A stretch of 64,000 nt of DNA from positions 1 through 64,000 of the forward strand of contig NZ_MBLO01000269.1 of assembly GCF_001854805.1 (NCBI RefSeq), read 5' to 3'. The translations under genes were made by a program, and so were the position numbers. The number at the start of each line of letters is the position of its first letter. Positions within the stretch are counted from its first letter, which is position 1. This document shows positions 56,334 to 64,000 of this stretch, in pieces. The notes beneath the pieces were generated by a model. It did no database searches. It saw nothing but the letters and a program-made list of their open reading frames with translations, and was not told where the DNA came from. The DNA comes from Pseudofrankia coriaricola. Its GTDB lineage: Bacteria > Actinomycetota > Actinomycetes > Frankiales > Frankiaceae.

Positions 56334-56511
56334 ACCGCCCGGGTGCATTCGAGCGCCGTACGGCAGGGTTACAGTCGCGACGTTCCACGGCTCGTGCCTG
56401 GCCGGCAGACTTGCGGCCAGTCGTCCACTCGGGACGTGCACGGCTGACAAGAATCTTAATGGCTGAAAATTGCCTAAAAGGCCTCGGCGCGGGCTTTGAA
56501 TCCCGGGGCGC

Positions 56512-56544
56512 TCCCAGGAATCTCCCAGGGAATTCCCAGGTTGG
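56512..56544 (+). promoter_or_regulatory. Three TCCCAGG repeats phased by 11 bp upstream of the first ferric-reductase gene
   Basis: TCCCAGG starts at 56512, 56523 and 56534, exactly 11 bases apart, ending 22 bases before the ATG. Three-fold 11-bp phasing is the pattern bound by OmpR/PhoB-family regulators; such a regulator is encoded at 59811. A related, less perfect set precedes the paralogous reductase gene at the same distance. An AT-rich segment (about 56450-56480) upstream could be the promoter. Confidence 0.65.
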
Positions 56545-56562
56545 GTGGACACGCTTGGCGCC

Positions 56563-58140
56563 ATGAACTCCACGCGGGCCCCAGACGACGGGACTACGGC
56601 GACCGAACTCGGTCCCCCCGACTCGACCGGCGCGAGGCGGACGATGTCCGGTCAGCGGCACGAGTCCGTGCCGACGGTGGAGACGTCGCCCGGCCGGGAG
56701 TACCGGTTCGGCTCCGCCGGTGCCGCGGGCCGCCACCGGACGGCGGCCGAGGCCGCGAGCCGGGGCAGTGATCGGGCAGTCGTCCGGTCGTCGCGCTGGG
56801 GTGCGCGGCGGTCGGCGGGGTGGCGGGGGCGGCTCGCGGTGCGGGCTGGGCTGGTGGCCTGGGGCGTCCTGGTCGTGGCGCTGTGGTGGTTGGGCACCTC
56901 AGGGACCGGTGTGCGCGGGGGCGCGGCCGTGATGACGGCGTTCGGCCGGGTCTGCGGGCTGCTCGCGGCCTATCTGATGTTGGTCGAGCTGCTGCTGATG
57001 GCGCGGGTTCCGGCATTTGAACGGGCTGTCGGCCTGGACCGGCTGGCGGCCTGGCACCGAGGGCTGGGTACCAACGTCGTGTTGCTGATGGTTCTGCATG
57101 TCCTGCTGACCGTCTGGGGCTACGCGCTTGCTGACCATAACCAGCCGGTGTCCGAGTTGTTCACGGTGATCACGACCTATCCGGAGATGTGGAAGGCGAC
57201 GATCGGTGTGTTGCTGTTCGTCGCGGTCGGGGTGGCCAGCGCCCGTGCGCTGCGCCCGCGGATCTCCTACGAGGCCTGGTACCTCCTGCACCTGACGAGC
57301 TATGTAGCTGTACTTCTGGTCTTCGGGCACCAGACGGCGACCGGTGCCGAGTTCGTTGGCCATCCGGTCAACCAGCGCATCTGGCAGGCGATGTACGTGG
57401 CCGTCGCCGCCTGCCTCGTCATCTGGCGGCTGGTCCTGCCACTCGCCGCGATTGTCCGGCATCGGCTGCGGGTGGAGCGCGTCGTCGAAGAAGCACCCGG
57501 GGTCGTTTCGGTGTGGCTCCGCGGCCGGCAGTTGGACCGGCTCGGTGCGCGATCCGGGCAGTTCTTGCTGTGGCGGTTCCTCGCGCCTGGGCATTGGATC
57601 AGCGCTCATCCCTATTCGCTGTCCGCCCCGCCCCAGCCGAACCAGCTACGTATCACGATCAAGGCCGCCGGTGACCACTCGAGCACGATCGCCCGCCTTC
57701 GACCCGGCACGTTTGTCGTCGCCGAGGGCCCGTTCGGGCGGTTCACCGCCCAGCAGGCCACCTGCGGCAAATCGTTGCTCGTCGCGGGCGGCAGTGGGAT
57801 CGGGCCGGTCCGGGCGCTCGCGGAGGATCTCGCAGGTCGCGGCGACGATGTCATCGTCGTCCATCGGGTGCGTAGAACGCACGATCTCGCACTGGGGCGG
57901 GAGCTGCGGCGTATCTCGAGCAACCAGCGGCTGCTGGTGCACGGCGTCGTCGGGTCGCGGCGTGAGCTTGGGTATGACCCGATGTCGGCCGACCTGCTTG
58001 CCGAGTCGGTGCCGGACGTGATCGAGCGCGACGTCTTCATCTGCGGACCCGCCGGGCTGACCCACGGGCTTGTCCGCTCACTGCGCGCTCTCGGCCTCGC
58101 CGACGACCAGATCCACACCGAGGACTTCTCGCTGCGCTGA
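56563..58140 (+). CDS. Ferric-reductase-like transmembrane flavoprotein
   Basis: A 525-aa protein from ATG 56563; the paralogue starts with the same MxSTR pattern, supporting this start. After about 90 hydrophilic residues come six helices of a ferric-reductase/NOX-like domain with paired haem-ligand-type histidines (WHRGLGTNVVLLMVLHVLL; WYLLHLTSYVAVLLVFGHQ). The C-terminal ferredoxin-NADP-reductase-like part has HPYSLSAPPQPNQLRI (FAD), PFGRFTA, LLVAGGSGIGPVRALAEDL (NAD(P)) and VFICGPAGL. It should move electrons from cytosolic NAD(P)H across the membrane, plausibly to the flavinylated protein encoded next. It is the first gene of the flavin operon. Confidence 0.93.
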   Translation: MNSTRAPDDGTTATELGPPDSTGARRTMSGQRHESVPTVETSPGREYRFGSAGAAGRHRTAAEAASRGSDRAVVRSSRWGARRSAGWRGRLAVRAGLVAWGVLVVALWWLGTSGTGVRGGAAVMTAFGRVCGLLAAYLMLVELLLMARVPAFERAVGLDRLAAWHRGLGTNVVLLMVLHVLLTVWGYALADHNQPVSELFTVITTYPEMWKATIGVLLFVAVGVASARALRPRISYEAWYLLHLTSYVAVLLVFGHQTATGAEFVGHPVNQRIWQAMYVAVAACLVIWRLVLPLAAIVRHRLRVERVVEEAPGVVSVWLRGRQLDRLGARSGQFLLWRFLAPGHWISAHPYSLSAPPQPNQLRITIKAAGDHSSTIARLRPGTFVVAEGPFGRFTAQQATCGKSLLVAGGSGIGPVRALAEDLAGRGDDVIVVHRVRRTHDLALGRELRRISSNQRLLVHGVVGSRRELGYDPMSADLLAESVPDVIERDVFICGPAGLTHGLVRSLRALGLADDQIHTEDFSLR

Positions 58141-58196
58141 CCGCTCCGCTGACGTGCGGGACCGGAACCGAAGACCGAAGAAGAAAGGAGGTGGCG

Positions 58197-58247
58197 GTGC
58201 CTTCACCCGGTCCCTGGGCCGGAAGCAGGCGCCGCGACTTGACATGA
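58197..58247 (+). CDS. Short leader ORF coupled to the FMN-binding protein gene
   Basis: The best ribosome-binding site in this junction, AAAGGAGG (58185-58192), faces a GTG at 58197 that opens a 16-codon frame (VPSPGPWAGSRRRDLT), and its TGA overlaps the ATG of the next gene as ATGA. The next gene has no ribosome-binding site of its own in phase. This looks like translational coupling through a leader peptide. The alternative is a lost base that broke a longer N-terminus. Confidence 0.4.
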   Translation: MPSPGPWAGSRRRDLT

Positions 58248-58891
58248 ACCTCAACGCCGGGAAGCCCTATCGGGCGCGGCTTGGCTTCGCCGGACTACTG
58301 GGAACCGTCGTTCTCGTCGTCGGCGGCAAGGCCATGGCCACCCAGGGAGACCAACCCGCCGCGCTCGCCATGCCGAGCACGTCCGGGACGGGTCAGTTCT
58401 CCACGGGGTCCTCCAGCAGTAGCGGAGACGAGGCGTCGTCTGGCGACGAGGCCTCAGGGAACGACGGCACGGTGACGGCCACCCCGACCCCATCCGCCAG
58501 CGCCGGCTCAACCGGTTCCAGCAGCGCTGGATCCACCGGCGGTTCCGGCTCGACCGCCTCGGGCACGTCAGGCTCGGGCTCCTCCAGCGGTACATCGGGC
58601 ACTACATCGGGCACGAGGACTGTCACCGGCGACCCGACGGACACGAGGTATGGGGCAGTACAAGTACAACTCGTCATCAGCGGTAACAAGATCACCGATG
58701 TGATCACTCTCCAGGTACCGGACCGGGAGCGACGCGACATCGAGATCAACAGCCAGGCTGTGCCGATCCTGCGGCAGGAGGTCCTCACGGCCCAGAGCGC
58801 CAAGATCGATGTCGTTTCCGGCGCCTCTTACACCAGCAGTGGGTATGCGTGGTCCGTGCAGTCCGCGATCGACAAGGCGGGGCTGACGTGA
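58244..58891 (+). CDS. Exported FMN-binding domain protein (flavinylated)
   Basis: A 215-aa protein from ATG 58244: an N-terminal helix (GFAGLLGTVVLVVGGKAM) serves as signal anchor, then about 90 residues of Ser/Gly/Thr-rich linker, then the FMN-binding domain. The domain shows YGAVQVQLVISGNKITDVIT and the flavinylation motif VVSGASYTSSGY, in which the Thr after SGASY should receive FMN through a phosphoester bond made by ApbE. The apbE gene follows with a one-base overlap. It probably carries electrons outside the membrane, received from the ferric-reductase-like protein. Confidence 0.92.
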   Translation: MNLNAGKPYRARLGFAGLLGTVVLVVGGKAMATQGDQPAALAMPSTSGTGQFSTGSSSSSGDEASSGDEASGNDGTVTATPTPSASAGSTGSSSAGSTGGSGSTASGTSGSGSSSGTSGTTSGTRTVTGDPTDTRYGAVQVQLVISGNKITDVITLQVPDRERRDIEINSQAVPILRQEVLTAQSAKIDVVSGASYTSSGYAWSVQSAIDKAGLT

Positions 58892-59814
58892 TGGCGGACG
58901 GGCGGCCGGGCCATGTGCATGTGGAGCCGGTGATGGGGACGGTCGTGAGCATCGCCGTCCGGTCGCCGTCGAGAACGGCCGGTCTCCACGGCCCGCCATC
59001 GGATGGGGCGGGTCCCGCGGCGCTGGGTGTGGACGCGGCGATCGCGGTGGCGGTGGCGGCACTGCGGCAAACGGATGAGGATTTCAGTACCTTCAGGGCG
59101 GGGTCGTGGGTCTCCCGGCTGCGGCGCGGCGAGATCGGTCTGGAGGACTGCCCTGGGCATGTTCGGGAGGTCTACCGGCTTGCCGAGGCCTGCCGGGACC
59201 GCAGCGGCGGCTGGTTCGATCCGGCGTGGCGTGGTGACGGCACTTTGGATCCGACTGGTCTGGTGAAGGGCTGGGCGGCGGACGTCGCTTCGGCGGCGCT
59301 GTCCCTGGCTGGAGTTGCCGACTATTGTGTGAACGCGGCCGGGGATCTGCGTCTGCGTGGCGCACCGGCGCCGTGGCGGGTGGGGATCGCGGACCCGTTT
59401 CACCGGGATCGGATCGTCGCTGTCGTCGAGGGCACGAATCTGGCTGTGGCCACTTCTGGCATCGCCGAGCAGGGTGGCCATGTCGTCGATCCGTGGACGA
59501 GAGAGCCCGCGTCGGGTCTCGCCTCCGTCACGGTTGTTGGGCCGGATCTGGCGTTGGCCGATGCCTACGCGACCGCGGGTCTTGCCGCGGGCCGGAACGC
59601 ACCGGAACTTTTGAACGACCTCGCCCGTGACGGCTGGGAGTGGCTCACTGTCGACTCGACCGGTGGGGTGGCCTACTCGGCTGGTTTCCGCGGTCAGCCT
59701 GGCCAGTCCGGCCTGGCGGTCGCGGCGTGCTTCAGCTACGTGGGACAGGTCGCCGCCGCCACACTTCCATCGGTCATCGGGCCGGACCTGCCAAGGGCGA
59801 GACTGGGTTTGTGA
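58891..59814 (+). CDS. apbE: ApbE, FAD:protein FMN transferase
   Basis: A 307-aa ApbE-family enzyme with the expected motif order: VEPVMGTVVSIAV, DEDFSTFRAGSWVSRLRRGE, DPTGLVKGWAAD, NAAGDLRLRG, ATSGIAEQGGHVVDPWT and ADAYATAGLAAG. The family uses FAD to attach FMN to a Thr in an SGA[ST]xT motif; the substrate is evidently the preceding gene product. No signal peptide is visible, where many ApbE proteins are lipoproteins; the actinobacterial operon type often lacks one. ATG 58891 overlaps the upstream stop. Its own stop overlaps the next start (GTGA). Confidence 0.94.
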   Translation: MADGRPGHVHVEPVMGTVVSIAVRSPSRTAGLHGPPSDGAGPAALGVDAAIAVAVAALRQTDEDFSTFRAGSWVSRLRRGEIGLEDCPGHVREVYRLAEACRDRSGGWFDPAWRGDGTLDPTGLVKGWAADVASAALSLAGVADYCVNAAGDLRLRGAPAPWRVGIADPFHRDRIVAVVEGTNLAVATSGIAEQGGHVVDPWTREPASGLASVTVVGPDLALADAYATAGLAAGRNAPELLNDLARDGWEWLTVDSTGGVAYSAGFRGQPGQSGLAVAACFSYVGQVAAATLPSVIGPDLPRARLGL

Positions 59815-60569
59815 CGGCATCGGTGAGTCCATCGGCGGGGGACTCGGCCCGCACCTCGACAGGTGGCGCGGGCGGCCCGCGGGTCAGGGTCCTGGTCGTC
59901 GACGACGAGGAGGCGATCACCGATCTTGTCGCCATGGCGCTGCGGTATGAGGGCTTCGAGATAGCCGCCGTGCACTCGGGCCAGGCCGCGCTGACCCGGG
60001 TCGCGCTGGACCCGCCGGATCTGCTCGTGCTCGACGTCATGCTCCCGGACATCGACGGGTTCGCCGTCTGCGAGCGGTTGCGCCACGCGGGGCATGGCGT
60101 TCCGACTCTGTTCCTCACGGCCCGCGACACCACCGAGGACAAGGTGCGCGGGCTGACCCTCGGCGGCGATGACTACGTGACCAAGCCGTTCGCGGTCTCC
60201 GAACTGGTGGCCCGAGTCCGCGCGGTCCTGCGGCGCGCCGGTACCGCCGCGCCCGGCGATGACGGGCCCGCGCCGCTGCGCTTCGCCGACCTGGAACTCG
60301 ACCCACGGACCAGGGATGTCCGCCGCGCCGGGCGTCTTGTCGAGCTGACCGTGACGGAGTACCGCCTTTTGCACTACCTGCTCACCAATGCCCGCGCCGT
60401 CCTGACCCGGGCCCAGATCCTCGACCACGTCTGGGGCCATGACTTCAGCGGGGAAGCCAGCGTCCTGGAGACCTACATCAGCTACCTGCGGCGAAAGATC
60501 GACGATGTTCAGCCGCCGCTGATTCACACGGTGCGCGGGGTCGGCTACGTGCTGCGCCTACCGCGCTGA
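59811..60569 (+). CDS. OmpR-family response regulator of the flavin operon
   Basis: A 252-aa regulator from GTG 59811 (GTGA overlap with apbE). Receiver: VVDDEEA, phosphoacceptor Asp in LLVLDVMLPDIDGF, and YVTKPF. Winged helix: LTVTEYRLLHYLLTNARAVL, ILDHVWGHDF, VLETYISYLRRKIDD, VRGVGYVLRLP. It forms a pair with the following kinase, 17 bases on. Its likely targets are the two ferric-reductase promoters, which carry 11-bp-phased repeats. Confidence 0.95.
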   Translation: MTASVSPSAGDSARTSTGGAGGPRVRVLVVDDEEAITDLVAMALRYEGFEIAAVHSGQAALTRVALDPPDLLVLDVMLPDIDGFAVCERLRHAGHGVPTLFLTARDTTEDKVRGLTLGGDDYVTKPFAVSELVARVRAVLRRAGTAAPGDDGPAPLRFADLELDPRTRDVRRAGRLVELTVTEYRLLHYLLTNARAVLTRAQILDHVWGHDFSGEASVLETYISYLRRKIDDVQPPLIHTVRGVGYVLRLPR

Positions 60570-60586
60570 TCTCGGCGGGAGCTGGT

Positions 60587-62233
60587 ATGTCGTTGCGTGC
60601 CAGGTTGTTGCTCGCCCTGGTGGGACTGCTCGCGGTCGGCCTGACGCTCGGCGCGGTCGGAACCCATTTCGCCTTGCAGTCCTACCTGATGAGACGCCTG
60701 GACCAGCAGGTGCGTGACGCCCACCCGGTGATGGAGCAGACCCTGCTGCGCGGCACTGGCTATGGCGACAACGACAGCGATAACAGCGGTCAAGGTAGGT
60801 GGGGTAGCGCCGACGGTGACGATCGGGACCCGCGATTTGGCAGCGCGTTCCTGGTTGGAACCTACGGAGCGCTGTACGACGGCGGCGGCCATCGGCTGCT
60901 GGAGTCCAGCCCGGGCCCGAGTGGTGCCCGGACGCCGACCGAGCGCCCGGTCATCGAGGCCTGGCTGCTCGCCGCGGCCGAGGTTCGCCCGAACCTGGCG
61001 ACCGCCCCGCTGTGGACCGTGCCCGCCGAGGGGCACGACGACCGGTTCCGGATGCTCGCTGAGCGTTTCGACAACGGGGACGTGCTCGTCGTTGCCGTCC
61101 CCTACGCGGAGATGGACGCCACCCTCGAACGCGTGGCCAAGATCGAGATTATCGCGAGTTCGGTGGTGATGGCTGCACTGGTAGCGCTGGCCTACCTCCT
61201 CATCCGGGTCGGGCTGCGCCCGCTGACCCGGATCGAGCTTACGGCCGACGAGATCGCCGGGGGCGACCTGGCGAAACGGGTCGCGGACACAAGCCGGCGT
61301 ACGGAGGTCGGACGGCTCGGTCTGGCGTTCAACGCCATGCTCACCCAGATAGAGGCGGCCTTCCGCGCCAGGGAGGCATCCGAACAGCGATTGCGTCGCT
61401 TCGTCGCGGACGCCAGCCACGAACTGCGAACCCCGCTCACCTCGATTCGCGGCTATGCCGAGATGTTCCACCGGGGCGCCGCCGAACGGCCCGAGGACCT
61501 GGCCATGGTCATGCGCCGCATCGAGGAGGAGTCCACCAGGATGACCGGTCTGGTGGATGATCTGCTGCTGCTTGCCCGGCTGGACCAGGGGCCGGCGACC
61601 GAACGCGAGCCGGTCGATGTCGCCGCCATGGTCCGCGACATCGTGACCGATGCCCGCGTCGTCGCACCGAACAGGCTCATCGAGACCGGCACACCTCCGT
61701 TCCTGGAGATCACCGGCGATGAGGGCCGGCTACGGCAGGCGATCGGGAACCTCGTCCGCAATGCGCTCGTCCATACCCCGCCGGACACTCCGATCGCCGT
61801 GACCGTCGCCACCACCGTCACAAGTGCCGCGACGACCGCCGTCACCGACGCCGCTCCGAACCTGGCCAAAGCCGTCAAGGCGGCCGAGATCGGCGCGGAC
61901 CTGAATCCAGAGTCGATCGCCACGCCTGGCTCCTCGACGAGCGTGAATTCCTCGGGCAAGCGAGCCATGGGGCCAGGGAAGCACCTGGCTTCGGAGGCAG
62001 CCGACGTAGTGATTTCGGTTATCGATCATGGTGCGGGCATCCCCGAAGACGCCGTCGCCCACATTTTCGAACGCTTCTACCGTGCCGACCCGGGCCGCTC
62101 CCGCGACGCCGGCGGCACCGGGCTGGGCCTGTCCATCGTCGCGGCTGTCGCCGCCGCCCATGGCGGCCATATCGACTACCAGCCCACACTCGGCGGCGGT
62201 GCGACCTTCCGTCTCATCGTGCCCTGCCGCTGA
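60587..62233 (+). CDS. HisKA sensor histidine kinase of the flavin operon
   Basis: A 548-aa kinase with a first helix (LLLALVGLLAVGLTLGAVGT), an extracytoplasmic sensor of about 155 residues, a second helix (IIASSVVMAALVALAYLLI), HAMP (TADEIAGGDLAKRVADT), H-box FVADASHELRTPLTSIRGYA, N-box QAIGNLVRNALVHTP, and G-boxes VIDHGAGIPEDAV and GGTGLGLSIV. About 70 low-complexity residues (Thr/Ala, then Ser/Gly) are inserted between the N- and D-boxes of the ATPase domain. The sensor has a Gly/Asp/Ser-rich stretch (GYGDNDSDNSGQG). It may sense a redox-related signal outside the cell (inference). Confidence 0.94.
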   Translation: MSLRARLLLALVGLLAVGLTLGAVGTHFALQSYLMRRLDQQVRDAHPVMEQTLLRGTGYGDNDSDNSGQGRWGSADGDDRDPRFGSAFLVGTYGALYDGGGHRLLESSPGPSGARTPTERPVIEAWLLAAAEVRPNLATAPLWTVPAEGHDDRFRMLAERFDNGDVLVVAVPYAEMDATLERVAKIEIIASSVVMAALVALAYLLIRVGLRPLTRIELTADEIAGGDLAKRVADTSRRTEVGRLGLAFNAMLTQIEAAFRAREASEQRLRRFVADASHELRTPLTSIRGYAEMFHRGAAERPEDLAMVMRRIEEESTRMTGLVDDLLLLARLDQGPATEREPVDVAAMVRDIVTDARVVAPNRLIETGTPPFLEITGDEGRLRQAIGNLVRNALVHTPPDTPIAVTVATTVTSAATTAVTDAAPNLAKAVKAAEIGADLNPESIATPGSSTSVNSSGKRAMGPGKHLASEAADVVISVIDHGAGIPEDAVAHIFERFYRADPGRSRDAGGTGLGLSIVAAVAAAHGGHIDYQPTLGGGATFRLIVPCR

Positions 62234-62608
62234 CCGCGGTCATCGGCCGCATGGCCCGGCGACAGTTACCGTGGCGGTGCTCGATTGGTCTCGATCCCCG
62301 GAGATCGTGGCCAGATGACTCGCTTGAGGAGGCCGGCGGTCGGTCGGTCCGTTTGCCGGCTCGCCGGGCGTAGGCCAGCATCAGGGCTTGGGGCCGCCGT
62401 ACCACGAACGCATTGGCCCTACACCGTCCGGTGCTCCGCGCCGCGACCCGGGAGACTGCGTCCAGTCTCCGCTCGGTGGCGCATGGTGCTGACCGAACGC
62501 TGATCTACTGGAACGGGCCGTGTGGTCCAGGCACCGGTTCCAGATTCACGAGTCGTCCGCAGGACTCTCCCAGGGAATTCTCCGGCCGAGCGGACACGCT
62601 CTATCCTC
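62234..62608. other. Gap before the second ferric-reductase gene
   Basis: About 375 bases without a gene. A 7-bp hairpin (GGAGACT at 62451-62457 with 62464-62470) may end the kinase transcript. The phased TCCCAGG-type element occupies the last part. Confidence 0.5.
62557..62585 (+). promoter_or_regulatory. Phased TCCCAGG-type repeats upstream of the second ferric-reductase gene
   Basis: The 15-mer TCTCCCAGGGAATTC at 62566-62580 is identical to 56521-56535 upstream of the first reductase gene. Its TCCCAGG (62568) is flanked at exactly 11 bases by CCGCAGG (62557) and TCTCCGG (62579), each matching at five of seven positions. The element ends 23 bases before the ATG, against 22 in the first promoter. 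Confidence 0.6.
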
Positions 62609-64000
62609 ATGGACTCCACTCGGGTGCCGGGTGACGAGGCTTCGGCGGCCGATCTCGATCCCGTCGACTCGACCGACGTGCCGGCGACCATGCCGGGTTA
62701 CCGCCTTGAACCCGCGTCGGTGGGTGACGGGGGTCCGGTGGTCGACCTCGGTGCTGTCGACTCGACCGACGTGCCGGCGACCATGCCGGGTTACCGCCTT
62801 GAACCCGCGTCGGTGGGTGACGGGGGTCCGGTGGTCGACCTCGGTGCTGTCGACTCGACCGACGTGCCGGCGACCATGCCGGGTTACCGCCTTGAACTCG
62901 CGTTGCCGGCAGAAATGATGCCGAGTCCGGGGTCCTGGTCCGACCCGAGCCGCGGCACCGCCGCCGTCGACAACGCCAGGGATGACAACGCCAGGGATAC
63001 CGACGGCGGTAGGGATGCCGGTGCCGGCGAGGACGCCCCGGACGCCGGCGGCGCTGGAGATGCTGAGCGGGCCGGTGGCGGTGTTCCGCGCCGGGCGGTC
63101 GCCGAGGCGGCCCCCTCGGCCGGCGGGCGGTCGGTCGGGCGGGCGTCGGGCCCACGGTCGTCGCGGTCCGCGGGGTGGCGGGGGCGGCTCGCGGTGCGGG
63201 CGGGGCTGGTGGCCTGGGGCGTCCTGGTCGTGGGGCTGTGGTGGTTGGGCACCCCGGCGACCAGTCTGCGGGGCGGCGCGGCGGTGATGACCTCGTTCGG
63301 CCGGGTCTGCGGGCTGCTCGCGGCCTACCTGATGCTGGTCGAGCTGCTGCTCATGGCGAGGATTCCGGTGCTCGAGCGGGCCGTCGGGCTGGGACGGCTG
63401 GCGGCCTGGCACCGGGGGCTGGGCACTAACATCGTGCTGCTGATGGTCCTGCATGTGCTGCTGACGGTCTGGGGCTATGGGCTTGCTGATCACCGGCAGC
63501 CGGTGTCCGAGCTGTTTACCGTGATCACGACCTATCCGGAGATGTGGAAGGCGACGATCGGCGTGTTGCTGTTCGTCACCGTCGGGGTGGCCAGCGCCCG
63601 TACGCTGCGCCCACGGATCTCCTACGAGGTCTGGTACCTCCTGCACCTGACCTCCTACGCGGCCGTGCTTCTGGTCTACGGGCACCAGGTGTCCACCGGT
63701 GCCGAGTTCGTCGGCCACCCGGTCAACCAGCGGCTCTGGCGGGCGATGTACGTGGCTGTGTTCGCCTGCCTGGTCATCGGGCGGCTGGTCCTCCCGCTTG
63801 TCGCGACCGCCCGGCATCGACTGCGCGTGGAGCGTGTCGTCGAGGAGGCGCCGGGGATCGTCTCGGTGTGGATCCGCGGCCGGAACGTGGACCGGCTCGG
63901 GGCACGGCCCGGACAGTTCCTGCGGTGGCGGTTCCTCGCCCCGGGGCACTGGCTCAGCGCGCATCCCTACTCGTTGTCCGCACCGCCCCGGCCGGACCGG
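62609..64000 (+). CDS. Second ferric-reductase-like transmembrane flavoprotein (runs off the window)
   Basis: 464 codons are present and the 3' end is beyond the window. It is a close paralogue of the 56563 gene over the whole membrane domain (RLAVRAGLVAWGVLVV, WHRGLGTNIVLLMVLHVLL, WYLLHLTSYAAVLLVYGHQ) and into the FAD domain (HPYSLSAPP). The N-terminal hydrophilic region is much longer (about 190 residues against 90) because of a 31-residue tandem repeat and an Asp/Gly/Ala-rich stretch. Start ATG 62609 aligns with the first paralogue (MDSTR/MNSTR). A second flavin operon may continue to the right. Confidence 0.92.
   Translation, partial: MDSTRVPGDEASAADLDPVDSTDVPATMPGYRLEPASVGDGGPVVDLGAVDSTDVPATMPGYRLEPASVGDGGPVVDLGAVDSTDVPATMPGYRLELALPAEMMPSPGSWSDPSRGTAAVDNARDDNARDTDGGRDAGAGEDAPDAGGAGDAERAGGGVPRRAVAEAAPSAGGRSVGRASGPRSSRSAGWRGRLAVRAGLVAWGVLVVGLWWLGTPATSLRGGAAVMTSFGRVCGLLAAYLMLVELLLMARIPVLERAVGLGRLAAWHRGLGTNIVLLMVLHVLLTVWGYGLADHRQPVSELFTVITTYPEMWKATIGVLLFVTVGVASARTLRPRISYEVWYLLHLTSYAAVLLVYGHQVSTGAEFVGHPVNQRLWRAMYVAVFACLVIGRLVLPLVATARHRLRVERVVEEAPGIVSVWIRGRNVDRLGARPGQFLRWRFLAPGHWLSAHPYSLSAPPRPDR
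62663..62897 (+). repeat. 93-bp tandem repeat in the second ferric-reductase gene
   Basis: Two apparently identical 93-bp units (62663-62755, 62756-62848) and the first half of a third (62849 to about 62897) encode 31-residue repeats starting VDSTDVPATMPGYRLE. The first paralogue has one diverged half-unit at the same place (PDSTGARRTMSGQRHE), so the repeat expanded after duplication. The near identity suggests it is recent. Confidence 0.92.

Follow-up and report, generated by a model that had tools for sequence, protein, structure and literature searches.

Class II activation of the PhoB type relies on tandem half-sites that occupy the place of the −35 element at a fixed distance from the −10 element. 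In Mycobacterium tuberculosis, the response regulator PhoP binds TCACAGC-N4-TCACAGC and is strict on the 4-bp spacer, and it binds three- and four-motif arrays more tightly (4.6 and 2.2 nM versus about 19 nM), as described in the accessible part of PMC4832192. Actinobacteria widely possess MsrQ-like flavinylated extracytosolic electron-transfer systems, which have been described as uncharacterised (PMC8238504, accessible part). The main text of that paper gave no match for response regulator, with two-component appearing only in a reference title, and the main text of a later flavinylation paper (PMC11334425) gave no match for two-component or transcription. A literature search by title and abstract start, with subscription papers mostly and preprints wholly outside its scope, revealed, among the papers listed, no two-component or PhoP control of ApbE, FMN-binding, or MsrQ-like genes; PMC5449479, in the part available, concerns iron limitation in Bifidobacterium. 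Here, we analyzed a stretch of 64,000 nucleotides from Pseudofrankia coriaricola (contig NZ_MBLO01000269.1, positions 1 to 64,000; hereafter the window), in which one two-component system lies between two reductase branches, each preceded by an array of 11-bp direct repeats. We consider it likely, judging from the sequence, that the array before reductase 1 is bound by the PhoP-clade regulator encoded in the operon itself, which would activate the operon from a leaderless promoter.

As stated in an initial annotation of this DNA, TCCCAGG occurs three times at exact 11-bp spacing upstream of reductase 1 (at 56512, 56523, and 56534), and a fourth in-register copy, TCCCGGG at 56501, had been overlooked. 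Two further statements held as well: the 15-mer TCTCCCAGGGAATTC is common to both promoters, with its second occurrence at 62566-62580, and the distance from the end of the last heptamer to the start codon is 22 and 23 bases, respectively (ATG at 56563 and 62609). By itself, the heptamer shows no enrichment in the window, with 10 occurrences versus 11.4 expected. When the triple at 11-bp steps was searched for with at most three mismatches, the window yielded two overlapping matches with 0.01 expected, and none of 100 shuffles reached two. Throughout the 11.2-Mb genome, this pattern matched at array 1 only, and a looser triple (TCNCAGG, at most two mismatches) matched four times, twice at array 1, once at copy 2 (the array before reductase 2), and once at 72425, before the gene of a second regulator designated RR2; the reversed control gave zero matches in both searches. 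The repeats are real and non-random. Their arrangement, 7-bp half-sites with 4-bp spacers in direct repeat, is that of a PhoP-type site; relative to the TCACAGC half-site, T1, C2, A5, and G6 are mostly retained, and the centre and the last base are variable. A palindrome within array 1, GGGAATTCCC, is present in copy 1 of G000 and G031 and in few other arrays (L025 and L045) of the conservation set described below (G, C, L, and f numbers are our handles for genomes, contigs, loci, and families), and it was not taken as functional because so few other arrays carry it.

The initial annotation had proposed a search for the motif in related strains, and the array proved to be clear at 16 of 22 orthologous promoters. 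These came from a reductase search of 35 Frankiaceae genomes, which gave 37 matches in 25 genomes, 22 at 64% identity or above and 15 more distant (46% or below). Extending the search to the order added no genome to these 35. In addition to the 16 clear four-heptamer arrays, there were three degenerate copy-2 arrays (G000, G028, and G031), one partial array (G015), and two altered ones (G001 and G012). None of the 10 promoters scanned among the 15 distant reductases showed a clear array (eight had their best match at 12 to 14 of 21), in a scan that would overlook altered arrays; the altered-array promoters of G012 and G001 came out at 14 and 13, respectively. The conservation set comprised 10 of the clear arrays after removal of the near-duplicates L021, L023, L028, L030, L037, and L045, and left out six further orthologous promoters (the three copy-2 promoters, L032, L034, and L035). 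The register of L026 was shifted by one 11-bp unit after the position of the hexamer described below had been seen, and L037, outside the count of 10, is one unit off in the tabulated alignment. Mean information in the 10 non-redundant arrays was 1.59 bits for heptamer columns versus 0.77 for spacers, a difference not attained in any of 20,000 column permutations but arising partly from selection, because the arrays were chosen for their heptamers. Heptamer positions 2, 5, and 6 are invariant within each half-site of the set (position 5 is always G in half-site 1 but A in half-sites 2 to 4), and the half-site consensus is TCnnAGS. Searching viral contigs gave no match.

The array is joined to a fixed promoter geometry. 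Exactly 9 nt past the last heptamer, a hexamer with A at its second and T at its sixth position (xAnnnT) is found in all 10 arrays of the set (9 of 10 without the L026 shift), and at the other offsets from 0 to 21 such a hexamer occurs in at most 1 of the 10. The distance from hexamer to ATG is 6 to 8 nt in every array, with a second ATG nearby in L024, L031, and L033. Nothing similar to TTGACA was found 16 to 19 nt ahead of the hexamer in the 10 arrays, where two or three of six bases match, as at chance level. An E. coli-type promoter scan also detected none in the region, which says little for such a GC-rich genome. A transcription start at the ATG would place half-sites 3 and 4 at about −40 to −23. 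This layout is probably that of an activator-dependent, leaderless promoter.

The regulator encoded in the row scored above the cut-off for both PF00072 and PF00486 and thus belongs to the OmpR/PhoB family. Its best solved relative is M. tuberculosis PhoP (258 bits, versus 176 for PrrA, 172 for RegX3, and 157 for MtrA), with which it is 54% identical. In a tree of 49 regulators, from which PrrA, RegX3, and MtrA themselves were absent, a clade of 44 rows including PhoP (support 99/97) is set apart from five other regulators of this genome. The OmpR-type regulator and site class named by the initial annotation can therefore be narrowed to the PhoP clade. The regulator is not a strict orthologue of PhoP: the cluster regulators have a subclade to themselves (15 rows, 100/99), L147 and L169 are the ones that group with PhoP (98/95), and the cluster subclade is placed beside PhoP proper, a C113-type subclade, and an RR2-type subclade. 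By alignment, the base-reading residues Val213, Glu215, Tyr217, and Tyr220 of PhoP are kept, Ser216 is changed to Thr, and Asn212 is changed to Ser. Among 14 distinct cluster regulators, 13 have Ser, Gly, or Arg in place of Asn212, and the 14th (L099) is uncertain because of an insertion there. Since Asn212 of PhoP contacts the motif centre, its replacement would fit the variable centre of the half-sites. Where the adjacent regulator has His at residue 212, 13 of 20 copies of half-sites 3 and 4 (10 loci) carry G as their fourth base, and where it has Asn, 8 of 10 (5 loci) carry C; we take this covariation only as a lead because the His regulators form one branch of the tree.

The genes run in the order reductase 1, FMN_bind, ApbE, regulator, kinase, reductase 2, FMN_bind 2, and ApbE 2 (Table 1). 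With the starts chosen here, ApbE overlaps both neighbours; 17 nt separate the regulator gene from the kinase gene, and 103 nt separate reductase 1 from FMN_bind. Because of these overlaps and short gaps, reductase 1 through the kinase are probably a single operon. A PF01794 protein adjoins FMN_bind and ApbE genes, as in MsrQ-like flavinylated systems, and the relatives of the reductase are from organisms named Frankia, Protofrankia, and Pseudofrankia. The kinase appears, on reading its sequence (60587-62233), to carry a long low-complexity insert within the HATPase domain, and the Pfam match is split into two stretches.

Table 1. Promoter elements and genes of the reductase row
Feature	Position	Strand	Remarks
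Half-site 1, TCCCGGG	56501..56507	+	In register, one change from TCCCAGG
Half-site 2, TCCCAGG	56512..56518	+	Exact heptamer
Half-site 3, TCCCAGG	56523..56529	+	Exact heptamer
Half-site 4, TCCCAGG	56534..56540	+	Exact heptamer
−10-like hexamer CACGCT	56550..56555	+	9 nt past half-site 4, 7 nt ahead of ATG
Reductase 1, MsrQ-like	56563..58140	+	Ferric_reduct (PF01794) and NAD_binding_1; Pfam
FMN_bind-domain protein, presumed flavinylated electron carrier	58244..58891	+	PF04205, 25.2 bits versus cut-off of 22
ApbE flavin transferase	58891..59814	+	PF02424
OmpR-family response regulator, PhoP clade	59811..60569	+	Start codon uncertain; Pfam, structure-relative search, tree
Sensor histidine kinase	60587..62233	+	HAMP, HisKA, HATPase_c; Pfam
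Degenerate array of four half-sites (copy 2)	62546..62585	+	TCACGAG 62546, CCGCAGG 62557, TCCCAGG 62568, TCTCCGG 62579
−10-like hexamer CACGCT	62595..62600	+	9 nt past copy-2 array, 8 nt ahead of ATG
Reductase 2	62609..64000	+	Continues to 64609 on contig; then FMN_bind 2, ApbE 2

We infer the following course of events. Upon its signal, the neighbouring kinase would phosphorylate the PhoP-clade regulator, which would then line up on the 7-bp half-sites in head-to-tail order, with one subunit for each helical turn and at most a tetramer. Of its subunits, the two closest to the promoter would stand in for the missing −35 element and recruit RNA polymerase to the −10 hexamer 9 nt downstream, and transcription would start at or beside the ATG, giving a leaderless message. 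As the reductase, the FMN carrier, ApbE, the regulator, and the kinase share one gene row, this would amount to positive self-control. Through the degenerate copy 2, this regulator would also raise the duplicated branch, though probably to a lesser degree.

To score the arrays, a 55-bp profile (four half-sites, gap, and hexamer) was trained on nine arrays from other Frankiaceae species. On both strands of the window, it gave 49.3 at 56501, 19.0 at 62546, and 2.9 at the next best place, and the scores of both arrays exceeded those of all 300 shuffles of the respective regions. The orthologous copy-2 promoters scored 10.0 (G031) and 4.5 (G028), just over all 300 shuffles (maxima of 9.1 and 4.2), and a shorter 33-bp profile, made of half-sites 3 and 4, the gap, and the hexamer, gave P values of 0.03 and 0.007 for them. 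With scores that are lower yet above shuffles in three species, the copy-2 array is weaker but kept. The initial annotation had the two-component system control both branches: the first branch is probably a target, and the case for the second is weaker, its array being degenerate, although it still scores and recurs in three species. In G033, two copies of the cluster (C208 and C228; L086 and L089) each have their own regulator and kinase, while the present genome (G000) has one two-component system between the branches. The coding part for the N terminus of reductase 2 contains three near-identical 93-bp tandem copies (62629-62903; 94% matches); the tandem-repeat scan that listed them listed no such array in reductase 1.

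We then turned to the class as a whole. A related reductase (E of 1e-80 or better) is present in 132 of 393 class genomes, and 40 stretches (37 from outside the family and 3 from distant family members) provided 41 upstream regions. The 33-bp profile was significant (P ≤ 0.05 against 500 shuffles) in 20 of the 41, namely 13 of 15 with an adjacent PhoP-clade regulator versus 7 of 26 without one (Fisher P of 3e-4, uncorrected for relatedness). An xAnnnT hexamer lies at the best place in 15/15 regions with the regulator and 10/26 without, a count that is not independent, since the profile rewards the hexamer. Within family f18, the counts were four of four with an adjacent regulator and one of five without. 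L147, L148, and L149 have their ATG 7 nt past the hexamer. At the nine f17 and f18 loci with a regulator, the regulator gene is divergent and the 9-nt gap to CAnnnT is kept, but a leader follows; their sites read TCATAGG.aaaa.CGAGAGG, TCAGAGC.tgtc.TGAGAGG, and similar. Similar layouts recur class-wide beside MsrQ-like flavinylated reductases, and the regulators adjacent to them belong to at least two lineages of the PhoP clade. One tentative explanation, which we hold to be possible but somewhat doubtful, is that the promoter layout is old in the class and that its reader was swapped within the PhoP clade (the Frankiaceae subclade here, RR2-type elsewhere, none nearby in some), with the half-site following the regulator. 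If so, these promoters would form a natural series of re-wirings under a fixed geometry.

How far the array and the regulator go together was seen in 21 Frankiaceae stretches. Fourteen contain the regulator (74 to 100% identical), and two contain fragments, one of which runs into an N stretch (L094) and the other of which looks deleted (L103). There is none within the stretch in the remaining five: L090 (a second copy), L098, L100, L102 (cut by the contig end), and L104. In one of the fourteen, L095 (G020), the regulator of this strain or assembly has an in-frame gap of about 30 residues, and the promoter array is kept.

Several observations weigh against the assignment of the array to the operon's own regulator. 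In G019 (L103), the array is kept though the regulator gene is a fragment in this strain or assembly. Two Frankia genomes, G001 and G012, have the cluster without regulator and kinase, and no regulator of the cluster subclade was found in either genome (best, 61%); the array register, the 9-nt gap, the hexamer CAACGT, and the 6 nt to the ATG are retained. Their promoters (L034 and L032) had been candidates for array-less ones, which was dropped when reading up to the ATG showed an altered array with the same register and gap; a co-loss of array and regulator was dropped for this reason. The half-sites in G012 are CCACAGG, TTTCAGG, ACATCGA (no match), GGTCAGC, and TTTCAGC. The 33-bp profile favours a pair at least one unit further upstream in G012 and G001 (P of 0.007 and 0.003), and the 55-bp profile settles on the position next to the ATG in G001 alone, where its score is low (−2.3). 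Since the geometry is kept without the regulator beside it, the promoter architecture is the more lasting of the two; in these genomes, a different OmpR-type protein may read the array, and a strict one-regulator-one-site account is weakened. On the same side, 7 of the 26 class promoters that have no regulator beside them score as well, the contrast is small when counted per family (5/7 with the regulator versus 6/13 without), and the last half-site of copy 2 no longer has its AG. The genome also contains PhoP-clade paralogues of the operon regulator, RR2 and the C113 one.

Such a paralogue might read the arrays, alone or jointly with the local regulator. We regard this explanation as unlikely, even though three regulators of this genome have M. 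tuberculosis PhoP as their best solved relative, arrays persist at loci without a local regulator, and the RR2 gene is itself preceded by a similar array (C269:72425) with GACAGT, an xAnnnT hexamer, 9 nt past it. At loci without the local regulator, the half-sites shift from TCnnAG to TTTCAG or GGTCAG. Moreover, among 12 promoters with an array directly before an RR2 gene, the offset-9 hexamer is present in that of this genome and absent in the other 11, so that the offset-9 geometry is mainly a trait of reductase promoters. The half-sites of RR2 promoters are TCACAGG/GCTCAGG-like, a contrast that is biased, because the pattern used to find them was fixed at position 4. In this genome, the promoter of RR2 could share the geometry, so that crosstalk may occur. 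The RR2 gene (C269:72699, L012; region 72425-73445) is followed by genes for a kinase, a glycosyltransferase-like protein, and a large membrane protein, the last two named from reading the sequence only.

Activation by the operon's own regulator also has to be weighed against repression, which the initial annotation had offered as an alternative to a very short leader. The layout agrees with a very short or absent leader. A repressor covering the promoter is conceivable because the array is close to the −10-like hexamer, where an operator could block the polymerase. The fixed 9-nt offset from a conserved hexamer and the lack of a −35 element in 10 selected non-redundant promoters are, however, what a positively controlled promoter needs, and a repressor would be expected to tolerate other offsets; we therefore consider repression very unlikely. 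Finally, the notion that the promoters resemble each other merely as a trace of gene duplication, with functionless repeats, draws on the upstream regions of the two reductases aligning well past the repeats and on the 85% identity of the reductases across 399 residues, and it has next to no likelihood, being already contradicted for array 1, which is kept across genera with diverged spacers and has similar, scoring counterparts in distant families.

Taken together, the locus resembles class II activation of the PhoB type in its tandem half-sites at the −35 place and their fixed distance to the −10 hexamer, and it differs in having four half-sites and probably a leaderless start. With these arrays, PhoP-clade regulators and their sites can be tested as a series, and a candidate leaderless, activator-dependent promoter is at hand. 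As at M. tuberculosis PhoP sites, 7-bp half-sites with 4-bp spacers stand head to tail, up to four in number (PMC4832192, accessible part). In contrast to PhoP, the cluster regulator belongs to a separate, well-supported subclade with residue 212 changed, the half-site centres vary (TCnnAG), and the target of the array here is an electron-transfer operon. A two-component switch dedicated to MsrQ-like systems, with a promoter code that can be read, would give a handle on when, and by which signal, they are made. Like those systems (PMC8238504, accessible part), the row combines a PF01794 membrane protein with a C-terminal NAD-binding domain, an FMN-binding protein, and ApbE; unlike the ones described there, it includes its own two-component system and a duplicated branch.

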